In this document: positions 43,831 to 48,435 of the stretch, piece by piece
How positions within the stretch are numbered: the stretch's first letter is position 1
Layout of the letters: each line of letters begins with the position of its first letter
Assembly: GCF_000270245.1 (NCBI RefSeq)
Contig: NC_015635.1
Location: 3,720,001 to 3,784,000, forward strand
Origin: Microlunatus phosphovorus NM-1
Lineage (GTDB): Bacteria; Actinomycetota; Actinomycetes; Propionibacteriales; Propionibacteriaceae
Length of the DNA stretch: 64,000 nucleotides
Direction of reading: 5' to 3'
Made by a program: the position numbers and the translations under genes
Notes under the pieces: generated by a model
Seen by the model: the letters and a program-made list of their open reading frames with translations, nothing else
What the model was told of the DNA's origin: nothing
The model's database searches: none

Positions 43831-43955
43831 CCGACGGATCCGGATGTCGCCGCTTGTGGCTGGTGGTCATCGCCAAGGATGAGCCCGATAGTGGCCGCAC
43901 AACCATCGGATCCGCCCTCTTGCTCGAGAGGCTCATCTTTGAGAGGAGGACCAGC

Positions 43956-44054
43956 ATGCCCAAGACCATCAAGTACGCGATCGCAACCCTCATCGTTGCG
44001 GCATCATCGCTCATCCCGCTCGCCGCAGAGGCCACGAAGACCGTCGGTGGCTGA
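43956..44054 (+). CDS. 32-aa secreted or membrane peptide precursor ending TKTVGG
   Basis: ATG 43956 follows a very strong Shine-Dalgarno (GAGAGGAGGA, 43941-43950). The product has a positively charged start (MPKTIK), a hydrophobic core (YAIATLIVAASSLIPLA) and an AEA-type signal peptidase site, leaving only TKTVGG (or ATKTVGG) at the C-terminus. The next annotated gene, a subtilase, contains TVGG followed by three TKTIGV repeats, so the tail resembles part of that protein. It could be a signal peptide releasing a hexapeptide, or a small membrane-bound regulator. Not a known family by inspection. The 125 bp before it (after the repeat block) must carry the promoter; no confident -35/-10 pair was found. 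Confidence 0.65.
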   Translation: MPKTIKYAIATLIVAASSLIPLAAEATKTVGG

Positions 44055-44190
44055 TACAGCCGACGACGGGAGGGCACGCCAGGTGCCGAGTCGGCGGACT
44101 CCGAGTCGGGCCGCATCGCGGCAGCTCCGCCGGCGCCGGCACCAGCAACTCGTGAACCGAATCCACTTCGGATCGGGATTCTCGGTTTGA
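44047..44190 (+). CDS. Possible 47-aa Arg-rich small protein, overlapping the peptide gene
   Basis: GTG 44047 overlaps the stop of the 32-aa peptide by 8 nt, a coupling-type layout. The product is Arg/Gln-rich (RAASRQLRRRRHQQLVNR) and ends HFGSGFSV, faintly like VGFSDEY in the protease. It has no Shine-Dalgarno of its own and no recognised domain, so it may be chance. Confidence 0.25.
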   Translation: MADTADDGRARQVPSRRTPSRAASRQLRRRRHQQLVNRIHFGSGFSV

Positions 44191-44192
44191 AA

Positions 44193-44252
44193 ATGACCGA
44201 GGAGCACGGACAAAAGTTCGTGGTCTATCGAACCCGTGGCCCCCTACGCTGA
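44193..44252 (+). CDS. Possible 19-aa peptide MTEEHGQKFVVYRTRGPLR
   Basis: ATG 44193 lies 2 nt after the previous stop. No Shine-Dalgarno. It lies 30 bp before the subtilase and might be a leftover 5' exon-like remnant of a longer protease N-terminus, or chance. Confidence 0.2.
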   Translation: MTEEHGQKFVVYRTRGPLR

Positions 44253-44282
44253 CACGAGCAGCGGACGAAATCGGGGGAGATC

Positions 44283-45842
44283 ATGAGTCCAGTGCAGCAG
44301 CGATACCACGGCATGTACGACCCGCTTGCGGCGTACAACGCCCGGGCGCTCGAGCCCGGCAAAGCGATTCGGACCTCGGACAGCAGCGCATCGTCAACGC
44401 TGTACATCGCCGACAGCATCCTTGTCGAGGGCGCTCCGGAGAGCGACGAGATCACCGACTTCCAAGCTTGGCTTCTGGAGAACAAGCACATCCTTGCGGT
44501 CCCTGACCGTCGAAATGTTGCCGTCTTCAACACTCGGGTCAGGGACGAGCGCACAACGCCCTGGGTCACCCCGATGACGTTGGCTCCGGCCCCCGGACAT
44601 GCCGTCACGATCGACTCCTGGACGCTGATCCAGCAATACCGCGCGGCGGTGCAGCGTGGCGAAGGCGACGATCACAAGCGGGCGACACCTGAGCGGGATC
44701 CTGCTGCCGATGCTCCAGCGGCGGCTGAACGCGAGATGCCAGAACGTACCGAATGCGGGGAGCGGCCGATCCTGGCGCCGACAAGGGTGGGCTTGGATCA
44801 CCTGATGGGGGCGAGTATCCTCGGCCAGTCGATGACCGTCGGCGGCACCAAGACGATCGGCGTGACCAAGACCATCGGCGTCACGAAAACGATCGGCGTC
44901 GGGTTCAGCGATGAATACGCGATCCCAGGCCTCGGTGGACGGACGCCTGTGTCCTACGTCGGTGCCGATCCACTCCGGAGTGGGCGGAAGGACGCACCGG
45001 TTGTCGCCCTGTTCGACACCGGTATCGGCAAGCACCGTTGGCTGGAGCAGGGAGTCACCGTCGTCGGATCGAACCCCGGATCGGTCTGCGCGGAGGACAC
45101 CGGCATCTGTCACGATCAACTCGAAGGCCGACTGGACGACTTCGCCGGACACGGCACCTTCATCGCCGGCCTGCTCCGGCAGACCTGTCCAGATGCCAGT
45201 CTGATCATGTTCCCGGTGATGGATTCCAGCGGGTACGTGCCGGAGTCGGCCATGATCACCGCCTTCGAAGAACTCGCCGCCATGCGGATCAAGGGCACTG
45301 CGGTCGACGCGATCTCGATGTCGTTCGGCTACTACCACGAGGAAGAGGACAAGTCGAAGACGGCGTCGCTCTACAACACCTTGAAGAACCTCTCGACCGA
45401 GAAGGACCGGCGTGGCAGGACCGTAGTCATGGTCGCTTCCGCCGGCAACGACGCCACCGACCGGCCACTGCTGCCCGCGGCCTTCGCCGACGACGTCGAC
45501 AACCTGACGAGCGTGGGTGCCCGCAACCCGAACGACACCGTGGCCCTGTTCAGCAACGCCGGCGCTTGGGTCAAGACCTATTGGACGGGCTCCCAACTGA
45601 TGAGCACCCTGCCGGAGACGTTCACCAAAGGCGGCATCCAGCCCACGGCGCGCACCGAGTGGGATCAGCGCCAGCGTGAGTCGCTGGACCTCGATGACTT
45701 CAGTTCGGGGTTTGCGACCTGGTCTGGAACCTCGTTCGCAGCGCCTGCCTTCCTCGGCCGTTGCCTGCAGGTCCACCTGGATGAGCCGGGCTCCGAACTA
45801 GCGAACGTCGTACGCGATGTCGCCGAAAAACACAGTCATTGA
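44283..45842 (+). CDS. Cytoplasmic S8 (subtilisin-like) peptidase with TKTIGV repeats
   Basis: 519 residues, ATG after GGGGGAG. No signal peptide or membrane helix, so it should act inside the cell. Residues 1-~165 form an N-terminal domain without a recognised family (LYIADSILVEGAPESDEITDFQAWLLEN). Residues 185-207 hold TVGG plus three TKTIGV units. The Peptidase_S8 domain (~235-505) has the full triad: Asp245 (LFDTGIG), His290 (GHGTFIAG), Ser484 (GTSFAAP), and the oxyanion Asn in SAGNDATD. It overlaps the CHAT gene by 26 bp in another frame, so the two are one operon. Protease cascades in bacterial conflict systems pair such enzymes; substrate unknown. Confidence 0.9.
   Translation: MSPVQQRYHGMYDPLAAYNARALEPGKAIRTSDSSASSTLYIADSILVEGAPESDEITDFQAWLLENKHILAVPDRRNVAVFNTRVRDERTTPWVTPMTLAPAPGHAVTIDSWTLIQQYRAAVQRGEGDDHKRATPERDPAADAPAAAEREMPERTECGERPILAPTRVGLDHLMGASILGQSMTVGGTKTIGVTKTIGVTKTIGVGFSDEYAIPGLGGRTPVSYVGADPLRSGRKDAPVVALFDTGIGKHRWLEQGVTVVGSNPGSVCAEDTGICHDQLEGRLDDFAGHGTFIAGLLRQTCPDASLIMFPVMDSSGYVPESAMITAFEELAAMRIKGTAVDAISMSFGYYHEEEDKSKTASLYNTLKNLSTEKDRRGRTVVMVASAGNDATDRPLLPAAFADDVDNLTSVGARNPNDTVALFSNAGAWVKTYWTGSQLMSTLPETFTKGGIQPTARTEWDQRQRESLDLDDFSSGFATWSGTSFAAPAFLGRCLQVHLDEPGSELANVVRDVAEKHSH
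44835..44900 (+). repeat. TVGG plus three 18-bp in-frame repeats encoding TKTIGV
   Basis: Units at 44847-44864, 44865-44882 and 44883-44900. All base differences among them (ACC/ACG, AAG/AAA, GTG/GTC) are synonymous, so the peptide is kept while the DNA has diverged. TKTVGG at the end of the 43956-44054 peptide is a close match. Confidence 0.9.
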
Positions 45843-48435
45843 GCCGATCCCAGCCTCGGTTCTCGCCCGCGCACAGGACTATCAGCATCGCGCCGCCATC
45901 GAGAACAGCTCGGGCCATGTGGCGCGCGGACACCGTCTGGCCACCGCCGGCTGGGCGCTGCTGAAGCTCCCTGACGTTCACAGCGAAGCGATCTGTGAGC
46001 CAGTTCGGTGCCGCCTGGCAACTAGGATGCTGGCCACCATGGCGAAGGCCGCCGTCGAGATGAGCGGTATCGAAGTCGCATTGGCCACCATGGAACGCTC
46101 CCTGGACTGGTCGACCTGCCTCGCCGACCAGGAATTGACTGCGCTGATGCTCAGCCAGAAGGCCCTCATCCTGTTTCGTGGCGGGCGACTCGAGGAAGCC
46201 GAGCAGACGTTCGCCGACGCCCTCGACCTGATGCGCGAAGGCGACCGCGATGCCATCCGAGTGCTCCTCAATCGCGGCGCGCTCTTCGTGGAGATGGGCG
46301 TGATCGGCCGTGCTCGTCTGGATCTGGCGACGGCGGTTCAGCTCTCCCGCCCGCTCGGCGATACCCAGTTCCAGCACATCGCCCTGCATAACCTGGGCTG
46401 CCTGGAGTTCACCTCCGGCGATCTACCAACGGCCCTGCGGCTGATGCAGGAAGCGCTCGAGGTCGACAGCCAGACGCTGGAAGGGCTCACCCATCTCGAT
46501 CGGTCCCGGGTGCTGCTGGCGGCGGGACTCCCCGATGAAGCTGACGCCGCACTGGCCCAGGCGGGCGAGCTTTTCCGGCGGGATCGGTGCTGGCAGGACC
46601 TGGCCGAGGTGGATCTGACCCGAGCAGAGGTGGCGCTGCTGACCGGCCGGGTCGCCGAGGCGCGGCTGTTGGCGGGCCGGGCGCGGGATCGCTTCCGGCG
46701 GCACGGGAACGACCGCTGGCGACGCAACGCCGAGTTGGTGCTGCTGCACGCCGACCAGGCTGCCGGGCGGCCACCGGCCCGGCTGCTCCCGCCGACGCGG
46801 CGACTGGCGGCCGAGTTCGCCGCGGCCGACTTCGGCCAGCAGGCGCGGAGCACGCTGCTGCTGGCGGCCGAACTCGAACTCGAGCGGCACCAGACCGATG
46901 CGGCCGACATTCTGCTCGACCAGATCGGCACAGTCGGCAGGACCGAGCCGATCGCCGTCCGGCTGCATCATCGCCTGGTTCGGGCGGTCAGCTTGGAACG
47001 GCACGATCGGCTGCCGGCGGCACGCCGCTCGCTCGCTCAAGGGTTGCGAGAACTCGCCGCCTATCAGGCCCAGTTCGGCGGCATCGACCTGCAAAGCGCG
47101 AGCGCAATTCACGGTCGCAGGCTGGTGGAGCACGACGTCGACCTCGCGATCCGCTCCGGCCGCGCCGTCGCCGTGCTGGCCGCCGTCGAACGGTCGCGAG
47201 CCGTCACCAGCCGAATTCAACCGGTCACCCCGCCGGCCGACGAGGCCACCGCCGGGCTGCTCACCGCGCTGCGGCGCGCCGCCGAGACGGCTGCCGACGA
47301 CGTGCAAGCCGGCGCCCGACCACTGTCGGCGACAGGGACGCGGAGGGCTCCGGCGTCGCCGGCCCTGCGGCAGGTCGCCGACCTACAAGCACAACTGCGT
47401 ACCCGCTCCTGGTTGAACAGCGGCAGCCGCGCCTGGCAGCCGCCGGCACCGGTCCGTGACCTGCGCGCCGCGGCCGCCACGGACGGTTGTCATCTGGTCA
47501 CCGTCATCGAGCACCGCGGGCACATCGGCTCCGTCACCATCACCGAGGGCGGCCGGATGCGACTGCGGGAACTCGCCGACGCGGAAACCGTCCGTGGCTG
47601 GCAGCGCCGGCTGGCTGCCGACCTGGACGTGCTGGCCAATGCCGGGCTGCCCGAGGCGATGAAAGCAGCCGTCAGGCGTTCCCTGCGGCACAGCGCAGCC
47701 GAGCTCGGCCGGCTGCTCGGTCCAGCGATCGTCGACGACGACCGGCCGGTGGTGCTCAGTTCACCCGGCAGCCTGCTGACACTGCCCTGGTCGCTGCTGC
47801 CGCCGTTGGCCGGACGCCCGCTGACTGTGGCTCCCTCGCTCAGTGGCTGGCTCCGCGGGCGTACCAGATTGGCCGGCGCCGCCCCCGCGGATCGCTGGTC
47901 GATGACGGCCGTGGCAGGACCAGGGCTGGCCCGCGCCCAGGAAGAGGCCGCCGACGTGGCCGCCAGCTGGTCGGCCGGTGCCGACGTACGCCAGCTGCCG
48001 GGGGCGACGCCCGCCGAGCTGCTGGAGGCGATGGCGACCAGCCGACTCGTCCACGTCGCCGCCCACGGCGTCCACCGGAGCGAGAACCCGATGTTCTCGT
48101 CGCTGTCCCTGACCTCCGGACCGCTGTTCGCCTACGAGCTGGACCAGCGCCCGCAGCTGCCCGAGCACGTCGTGTTGTCGGCTTGCGATGCCGGACAAAG
48201 CACTGTGCGAGCCACCGAGACCTTGGGCCTGACCAGCGTTCTGCTCCAGCTGGGCACGGCCAGCGTGGTCGCCGGAGTCGCCCGCGTGCACGACGACACC
48301 GCCGCCAAGATCATGACCGGCTACCACCGCCACCTGGTTCGGGGGGCAAATGCGGCCGAGGCGTTGTGCGCCGCCGCGGCCGGAGTCGAGGAGCCGAGTC
48401 CGTTCGTCTGCTTCGGCACGGCCTGGCGCGCCTGA
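45817..48435 (+). CDS. TPR-CHAT protein (caspase-like protease)
   Basis: 872 residues, ATG 45817 inside the end of the subtilase gene. The N-terminal ~480 residues are tetratricopeptide-like helices (MLSQKALILFRGGRLEEAEQTFADAL, LHNLGCLEFTSGDLPTALRLMQEAL), a sensor or scaffold. The C-terminal CHAT domain (~600-870) has His750 (LVHVAAHGVHR) and Cys790 (VVLSACDAGQS), the catalytic dyad of caspase/separase-like clan CD proteases, both present. The tail ends ...PFVCFGTAWRA as in other CHAT proteins. Bacterial CHAT proteases act in immunity (gasdermin or Craspase-type systems). With the subtilase it forms a two-protease operon; direction of any cleavage is unknown. Confidence 0.92.
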   Translation: MSPKNTVIEPIPASVLARAQDYQHRAAIENSSGHVARGHRLATAGWALLKLPDVHSEAICEPVRCRLATRMLATMAKAAVEMSGIEVALATMERSLDWSTCLADQELTALMLSQKALILFRGGRLEEAEQTFADALDLMREGDRDAIRVLLNRGALFVEMGVIGRARLDLATAVQLSRPLGDTQFQHIALHNLGCLEFTSGDLPTALRLMQEALEVDSQTLEGLTHLDRSRVLLAAGLPDEADAALAQAGELFRRDRCWQDLAEVDLTRAEVALLTGRVAEARLLAGRARDRFRRHGNDRWRRNAELVLLHADQAAGRPPARLLPPTRRLAAEFAAADFGQQARSTLLLAAELELERHQTDAADILLDQIGTVGRTEPIAVRLHHRLVRAVSLERHDRLPAARRSLAQGLRELAAYQAQFGGIDLQSASAIHGRRLVEHDVDLAIRSGRAVAVLAAVERSRAVTSRIQPVTPPADEATAGLLTALRRAAETAADDVQAGARPLSATGTRRAPASPALRQVADLQAQLRTRSWLNSGSRAWQPPAPVRDLRAAAATDGCHLVTVIEHRGHIGSVTITEGGRMRLRELADAETVRGWQRRLAADLDVLANAGLPEAMKAAVRRSLRHSAAELGRLLGPAIVDDDRPVVLSSPGSLLTLPWSLLPPLAGRPLTVAPSLSGWLRGRTRLAGAAPADRWSMTAVAGPGLARAQEEAADVAASWSAGADVRQLPGATPAELLEAMATSRLVHVAAHGVHRSENPMFSSLSLTSGPLFAYELDQRPQLPEHVVLSACDAGQSTVRATETLGLTSVLLQLGTASVVAGVARVHDDTAAKIMTGYHRHLVRGANAAEALCAAAAGVEEPSPFVCFGTAWRA

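Follow-up and report, generated by a model that had tools for sequence, protein, structure and literature searches.

A tandem hexapeptide array on an actinobacterial subtilase as a probable docking ligand for its TPR-CHAT partner protease

The DNA analyzed here, hereafter the window, is a stretch of 64,000 nucleotides from Microlunatus phosphovorus NM-1 (assembly GCF_000270245.1, contig NC_015635.1, positions 3,720,001 to 3,784,000), whose genome is complete in one contig of 5,683,123 bp. It encodes an S8 subtilase followed by a protease that combines tetratricopeptide repeats (TPR) with a CHAT domain, and the subtilase carries a tandem array of a hexapeptide unit between its N-terminal and catalytic domains. 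Comparison with related loci suggests that the array probably forms part of the activation linker of a zymogen and acts there as a multivalent ligand, docking into the TPR groove of the TPR-CHAT partner. The groove was placed by alignment, and we infer binding of the units within it from their covariation with groove residues and from the conservation of the residues expected to hold a peptide there.

The features of the locus are collected in Table 1. A first-pass annotation had described a small open reading frame (ORF) ending in TKTVGG, a subtilase with three TKTIGV units and an overlapping TPR-CHAT gene, and each was found where it had been placed; the two protease genes overlap by 26 nucleotides, and a degenerate unit together with the three TKTIGV copies occupies subtilase residues 183–206. 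The subtilase assignment was supported by a score of 63.7 bits against PF00082 (cut-off 21.8), and the TPR repeats and the CHAT domain were both present in the partner. The catalytic residues originally proposed (S484, H750 and C790) hold as well, as D245, H290, N389 and S484 were invariant in an alignment of 53 S8 sequences and the H750/C790 dyad was invariant in 74 CHAT sequences.

Table 1 Features of the subtilase/TPR-CHAT locus, with positions counted from the first nucleotide of the window.
Feature	Position	Strand	Basis or remark
Shine-Dalgarno-like AGAGGAGG of the small ORF	43942-43949	+	Sequence
32-aa ORF, reads MPKTIKYAIATLIVAASSLIPLAAEATKTVGG	43956-44054	+	Signal-peptide layout judged by eye
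TKTVGG tail of the 32-aa ORF	44034-44051	+	Length and register match the array unit
S8 subtilase, 519 aa	44283-45842	+	PF00082; catalytic D245, H290, S484; no signal peptide by eye
S8 N-terminal domain, residues 39-176	44397-44810	+	Beta-alpha-beta / beta-alpha-beta (AlphaFold2 model); read as a putative I9-like inhibitory prodomain
Degenerate first unit SMTVGG	44829-44846	+	Sequence
Array TKTIGV x3	44847-44900	+	pLDDT <50; docking ligand of the TPR groove (proposed)
TPR-CHAT protease, 872 aa	45817-48435	+	Catalytic H750, C790; PF12770 and TPR models
TPR-CHAT residues 148-190, stretch covarying with the unit	46258-46386	+	R148, A155, E159, F185, I188, L190; N152, N192 conserved

Within the family, 53 of 198 genomes encoded the subtilase, as did 88 of 391 genomes sampled from the order, 8 of 396 sampled from the phylum and 91 of 341 genomes of a second family, counts that include the genome of the window. 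The main analysis covered 53 family stretches and 50 further stretches holding 52 subtilases, and 50 stretches from the second family formed an out-of-sample set. The pairing with TPR-CHAT noted in the first pass proved to be conserved: each of the 53 family subtilases was followed on its strand by a TPR-CHAT match, as were 51 of the 52 further ones, the exception (L132) being situated at a contig end. In 102 of the 106 subtilases examined, the linker ahead of the catalytic domain held approximately 2–13 unit copies (span divided by period), and an array was found in 49 of 50 further loci. The four S8 sequences lacking a counted array, which were left out before counting, were L084 (stops within the S8 match), L103, L104 and the masked L123. 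L103 and L104, from another family, carry the full operon without a tandem array, and their CHAT proteins lack the Asp equivalent to D228 while keeping both conserved Asn residues.

The unit is six residues long in 83 of the 102 arrays and 7–11 residues long in the remaining 19. The longer periods (e.g. L037, L046, L065 and L073) are glycine-rich or contain spacers around a shorter repeated core, and may show a minimal docking core. Sequence diversity was high, with 102 distinct units among 131 six-residue arrays, exemplified by PYYVSM, PYLAGV, PFTRGA, PMWEPH, PFHDGN, TMTVGG and TKTIGV. The consensus could be written P-[F/Y/V/I/M/L]-[T/H/W/Y/N]-x-[G/S/P]-[H/N]; of the 60 distinct units in the first set, 55 begin with proline. 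Within arrays, the proportion of nonsynonymous differences between units (pN) was 0.030 against 0.476 for synonymous ones (pS) over 100 arrays and 458 units, L035 and L038 being left out for holding fewer than two whole periods; pN was zero in 71 of the arrays. A further 48 arrays (215 units) gave a pN of 0.018 against a pS of 0.522, with pN equal to zero in 36. As amino acids were near-identical where synonymous sites had strongly diverged, recent slippage does not explain the repeats, and as slippage or gene conversion would homogenize the synonymous sites too, we read the pattern as selection holding each copy to the same amino acids. Such evolution, in which repeats stay identical in protein sequence and change together while the DNA is not homogenized, is unusual and would need strong selection on every copy.

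Positions 2–6 of the unit were scanned against the variable columns of the S8 catalytic domain, the S8 N-terminal domain, TPR-CHAT, a sigma factor and a third protein usually encoded in the same neighbourhood (82 loci; fewer for the latter two). The highest-scoring pair was unit position 4 and TPR-CHAT residue 188 (I188 in the window), with a z of 6.0, compared to 4.0 for the runner-up in any protein and 3.6 for the best pair within the subtilase. Over 128 loci, the top five pairs in TPR-CHAT joined residue 188 to unit position 4, A155 to position 3, F185 to position 4, L190 to position 5 and R148 to position 4, all within residues 148–190, a stretch of 43 of the 872 residues comprising two TPR helices with a near-invariant Asn in each. 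These residues represent 37 of 656 variable columns, giving a hypergeometric probability of 5e-7 for a region picked after the fact. The covariation also followed charge. Residue 188 was basic in 31 of the 33 loci with an acidic residue at unit position 4, in none of the 15 with a basic residue there and in 27 of 78 others, being Lys or Arg with acidic units and Thr, Gln, Ala, Glu or Met with basic ones; residue 148 was likewise basic in 0 of the 15 loci with a basic position 4.

The charge prediction was written down before the 50 new second-family stretches were fetched. After leaving out L194 (no array), L179 (period of 8) and L155, L187 and L197 (no residue at the column), residue 188 was basic with 8 of 10 acidic, 0 of 4 basic and 15 of 31 other units. 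Among 33 disjoint pairs of closest loci differing in acid status, 18 were concordant, none discordant and 15 tied. When independent evolution was simulated on the tree for 81 loci, without L068 and loci gapped at the column, the observed association was reached in 2 of 5000 runs, for a pair itself picked by the scan. Conservation around the variable positions pointed in the same direction, with N192 present in 146 of 146 sequences, N152 in 95% and D228 in 97%. Residues of a TPR motif at positions 2, 5, 9, 12 and 13 face the ligand, and a ladder of Asn residues at position 6 holds peptide backbones; in an alignment to an engineered TPR chain, N152 and N192 fell on position 6, and position 2 was taken by residues 148 and 188.

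Several observations weigh against the docking interpretation. The groove scan concerned six-residue arrays, leaving the 19 arrays of other periods outside it, and the unit of the window is itself an outlier to the consensus. Two of the ten acidic out-of-sample units, those of L174 and L200, lacked the predicted basic residue. When units were permuted within clades, 5 of 200 runs gave a scan-wide maximum equal to or above the observed one. The best pair alone therefore constitutes moderate evidence; the case for the groove is carried jointly by the clustering of the pairs, their agreement in charge, the out-of-sample test and the comparison of closest pairs. The largest partial correlation of unit distance was found with the S8 catalytic domain, at 0.154 against 0.058 for CHAT. 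Arrays also resembled the catalytic part of their own subtilase somewhat more than foreign arrays did, a tendency extending beyond the array itself (mean rank 0.441, with 14 of 101 under 0.05 where 5 were expected), at scattered sites and to a greater extent than leftover units would give. Finally, the order of activation and the output of the system are steps that we infer. Array-like stretches occur in the S8 catalytic part of L048/L064/L069, L117, L132, L145, L147 and others.

The predicted architecture of the subtilase is that of a zymogen. In the AlphaFold model of the window protein (mean predicted local distance difference test score, pLDDT, of 74), residues 180–221, which include the array, fell below 50 and were followed by the subtilisin domain; the array region is thus presumably disordered. 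Foldseek returned subtilisins as the top matches, and unautoprocessed pro-subtilisin (3whi_B) was aligned over 510 columns including gaps with a TM score of 0.45 and a root-mean-square deviation of 6.7. The I9 Pfam model gave no match to the window subtilase, whose N-terminal domain is a putative I9-like inhibitory prodomain judging by the modelled fold. In the mechanism we propose, an I9-like prodomain would be followed by a flexible linker with about 2–13 units and then by the subtilisin domain, and each unit would bind as an extended peptide within the concave groove formed by the TPRs of the neighbouring TPR-CHAT; there, the position-6 Asn residues of successive helices would hold the backbone and the variable positions 2, 9 and 13 would read the side chains. 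Docking would concentrate CHAT on the activation linker, where it may cut or unmask the linker and release the subtilase; alternatively, several CHAT protomers might be activated by proximity. An ECF54-type sigma factor could be the transcriptional output, and the 32-aa gene may supply a single secreted unit competing for the groove. The first-pass suggestion that the CHAT protease cleaves the repeats to release the active subtilase fits best among those made then, insofar as the repeats covary with the TPR groove, and cleavage of the repeats would be a further, proposed step.

As unit and groove appear to drift together, most species would possess a private tag. Such tags would also insulate two modules within one genome: L149 and L150 each carry two adjacent S8-CHAT modules with different units (PFTSGG; P[L/M]YDGH), and all four of these modules have Lys at residue 188 despite the different units.

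Other readings of the array account for parts of these data. It is unlikely, though worth keeping in view, that the units are self-cleavage sites of the subtilase at the boundary of prodomain and mature enzyme, possibly releasing hexapeptide signals; Kex2 releases peptides from the yeast alpha-factor precursor. The array directly follows a prodomain-like fold, the common unit start P-[F/Y/V/I/M/L] resembles the subtilisin substrate AAPF, and multi-copy peptide precursors would be expected to show identical units encoded by diverged codons. The partial correlation with the S8 catalytic domain and the resemblance of arrays to their own catalytic part leave room for this possibility, which is set against the TPR groove providing the strongest single covariation (z of 6.0 compared to 3.6 for the subtilase) and against Lys, instead of a hydrophobic residue, occupying position 2 of the window unit. 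A tripwire, in which foreign (phage) proteases cut the array as bait and thereby free the subtilase, would suit a flexible linker and the turnover represented by 102 units in 131 arrays. It is nevertheless improbable, as it does not predict a charge-matched covariation with the partner TPR, and units are fairly stable, being identical in 75% of 24 pairs of close relatives at 10–20% S8 distance.

Two further explanations seem very remote. The first-pass annotation had considered beta-stacking, amyloid-like signalling motifs shared between peptide and protease. Identical units in tandem could conceivably stack in register, but the low pLDDT of the array, its sequence diversity, the proline at position 1 of most units and the charge-matched covariation with the TPR groove all disfavour this. 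Furthermore, the sigma factor, the third protein and CHAT matched their own arrays no better than foreign ones (mean ranks 0.46–0.54), so that no homotypic shared motif was found among them. It is just as hard to credit that the array is neutral, low-complexity sequence produced by slippage, with the covariation being phylogenetic noise. The range of copy numbers and the permutation result are in line with this, and in the twelve-unit array of L120 the codons partly alternate as A-B-A-B, a sign of duplication by two-unit steps. Against it stand the divergence of synonymous sites beside near-identical amino acids, the difference of same-residue codons within arrays (0.391, compared to 0.461 under independent draws), the charge prediction that held out of sample and the 18 to 0 split among the closest pairs.

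The 32-aa ORF upstream of the window subtilase has several properties of a real gene. The residues A-E-A stand immediately ahead of its TKTVGG tail, and a cut following the AxA rule of signal peptidase I would free a hexapeptide corresponding to exactly one unit. Its GC content at third codon positions (GC3) is 0.81, compared to 0.80–0.86 in three neighbours. The codon pattern for T[K/M]T[I/V]G[G/V], written after the sites had been seen, occurs at three sites in the 5.68-Mb genome (reversed control, none), namely the peptide tail and two of the array units; the third array unit uses AAA for Lys. Among small ORFs bearing a ribosome-binding site, the C-terminus matched a non-cognate array at 4 or more of 6 residues in 42 of 17,776 ORF-array trials, which gives an expectation of approximately 0.007 for the three such ORFs of the window, a window itself chosen among many. 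For all 176 such ORFs, 0.42 matches were expected and two were seen, in the window and in L127.

The candidate of L127 is a 31-aa intergenic ORF without the look of a signal peptide. Counted from the S8 stop, it spans −1775 to −1679, in the gap that separates the stop of the third gene (−1824) from the likely start of the subtilase (−1644). Its C-terminal PYEEPH keeps to the register of PYEETH, the unit of its array, and represents the sole 5/6 match in 151 loci; non-cognate 5/6 matches arose in 3 of 17,776 trials, so that about 0.03 would be expected for all 176 ORFs. Some lineages may thus have such a peptide.

Relatives gave no general signal of such a gene. The nearest relative, G106 (TMTVGG x5, S8 56% identical, genome 96% complete), had no ORF with such a tail near its subtilase and showed the codon pattern at no other site, and the best match to the peptide in the other 19 genomes of the genus had an E-value of only 0.36. 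No general signal emerged from a six-frame search for own-array hexamers within 5 kb on either side in the first 53 loci and the window, nor from comparing C-termini of small ORFs with their own array in 102 loci. Across 151 loci, the forward frames of the 1.5 kb preceding the array matched the own array no better than foreign ones (own against foreign per locus, 0.788 and 0.887 for at least 4/6, 0.007 and 0.006 for at least 5/6, and 0.040 and 0.034 at a stop); this search skipped the S8 frame, in which the 32-aa ORF of the window lies. In six relatives with PYYVSM the unit was found in the array only, and a looser unit pattern gave eight sites outside arrays in 11 relatives, compared to five for the control. 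Other sources of the unit were considered and rejected: the C-terminal tail of the sigma factor, hinted at by L047, L145 and L041/L045, matched its own array no better than foreign arrays over 94 loci (mean rank 0.53), and own-array signal was absent from the third protein and CHAT.

The first-pass view of the peptide as a defining part of the system, with small ORFs upstream of S8-CHAT pairs whose tails match the local repeat, is therefore not borne out, since the relatives show none beyond chance level apart from the single candidate in L127. Its argument that the shared motif is unlikely to arise by chance finds support in the statistics above, while it remains nearly an even proposition that the ORF is a chance frame or decayed fragment without a role. 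The lack of the peptide in the relatives examined, the absence of any surplus of own-array matches ahead of the array across 151 loci and the failure to find a sigma-70-like promoter in the region favour the latter; the good ribosome site, the signal-peptide layout ending at a unit boundary, the coding-like GC3, the confinement of the tail pattern to the array elsewhere in the genome and the possible second case in L127 speak for a gene. On sequence comparison, the peptide appears to be a lineage-specific addition or a coincidence. It may be a single secreted unit, and the earlier suggestion that it mimics the linker and regulates activation is possible for the lineage of the window. The peptide tail, in which Val at position 4 is followed by Gly at positions 5 and 6, is similar to the TMTVGG array of G106, whose groove differs little from that of the window, making a role as free ligand plausible.

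A sigma-70/ECF (extracytoplasmic function) gene and a gene for a third protein of approximately 155–170 aa with a CarboxypepD_reg-like C-terminal part usually lie between or before the subtilase and TPR-CHAT genes in the relatives, being found in 94 and 90, respectively, of 101 loci scored. This module, with subtilase, CHAT and carboxypeptidase-like protein beside a sigma factor, matches ECF54, an assignment made by gene context rather than by a group model. No sigma factor was found among the neighbourhood ORFs of the window S8-CHAT pair. A sigma factor of 50% identity is instead encoded, together with the third protein, at 1.41 Mb of the same genome (L088, G000:C1:1413897-1414454), approximately 2.35 Mb away, with S8 and CHAT absent from the 3.6 kb read there; the module may have been split, or the sigma pair may be left from a second module. 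G106 carries a full module in addition to an S8-CHAT pair. A search for related loci in genome contigs found none.

ECF54 sigma factors have been described in a context with carboxypeptidase, subtilase and CHAT genes, from which proteolytic control was proposed (PMC8999054). The gene set is the same as here, except that the sigma pair of the window genome lies outside the S8-CHAT operon, and the published section on ECF54 is silent on a repeat array and on mutual recognition of the proteins (PMC8999054). A literature search on subtilase, CHAT, sigma factor, repeats and pheromones found no title or abstract describing the array or its reader, with subscription papers mostly outside its coverage. 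PADLOC gave a best match to the window with an E-value of only 0.007.

The closest parallels in recognition come from RRNPP(A) systems such as Rap-Phr, in which short and often six-residue peptides are read by a TPR domain and derive from signal-peptide precursors, some with tandem pheromones (PMC11343458, PMC9765709), and in which a conserved Asn of Rap receptors anchors the hexapeptide (PMC11343458). The covariation of the TPR groove and the Asn ladder, both obtained by sequence comparison, and the secreted-precursor layout of the 32-aa ORF are reminiscent of these systems. The differences are that the peptide is here displayed many times on a neighbouring protease, that the TPR protein is a CHAT protease, that the hosts are Actinobacteria and not Bacillota, and that a precursor was not found in most relatives; a secreted precursor gene beside the receptor was seen in the window only, the L127 candidate looking unsecreted. 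A more far-reaching model, which we consider doubtful, is a private-key cascade in which a species-specific hexapeptide on the subtilase linker is read by the TPR groove of CHAT, and the lineage of the window, perhaps with that of L127, also makes the hexapeptide separately, here in secreted form, to switch the cascade; this would amount to RRNPP-like control of proteolysis instead of transcription.

Craspase (CASP) of type III-E CRISPR comprises the TPR-CHAT protease Csx29 with Csx30 and CASP-sigma (PMC10028731), and shares with the present module a TPR-CHAT protease tied to a sigma factor and its regulator. It differs in that no CRISPR effector was noted here and that the covarying ligand is a subtilase linker, and the Csx29 model NF041237 scored 12.8 bits in the window and 21.7 in L055 (cut-off 300), placing neither in the Csx29 family. 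Matches of the TPR part in the PDB included designed TPRs, TOM70, OGT and kinesin light chains, some of them determined as fusions to cargo sequences or together with these; OGT, kinesin light chain and TOM70 contain peptide-binding TPRs, but are eukaryotic and without a CHAT domain.

If the docking model is true, the loci supply roughly a hundred pairs of peptide and TPR with natural specificity, from which a TPR recognition code and orthogonal tags for docking could be developed, and the ECF54 neighbourhood gains a testable mechanism with named interface residues and natural species pairs that have a matched change on each side. Examples of such pairs are L117 (PFHDGN, Lys) with L118 (PFHQGN, Met) and L143 (PHNEPT, Lys) with L136 (PHNKPN, Met).

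Additional genes accompany the module in some loci. A protein of 719–752 aa is encoded after TPR-CHAT, approximately 3.5–3.8 kb past the S8 stop, in L050, L051, L053, L056, L080 and L082 (6 of 54 loci scanned for genes); the L050 copy had no Pfam match above cut-off, and the protein is a possible substrate or effector. In L035, L038, L041 and L045, a UBP-type zinc-finger protein of approximately 110–135 aa (PF02148, tested on the L041 copy) is encoded upstream of the subtilase.

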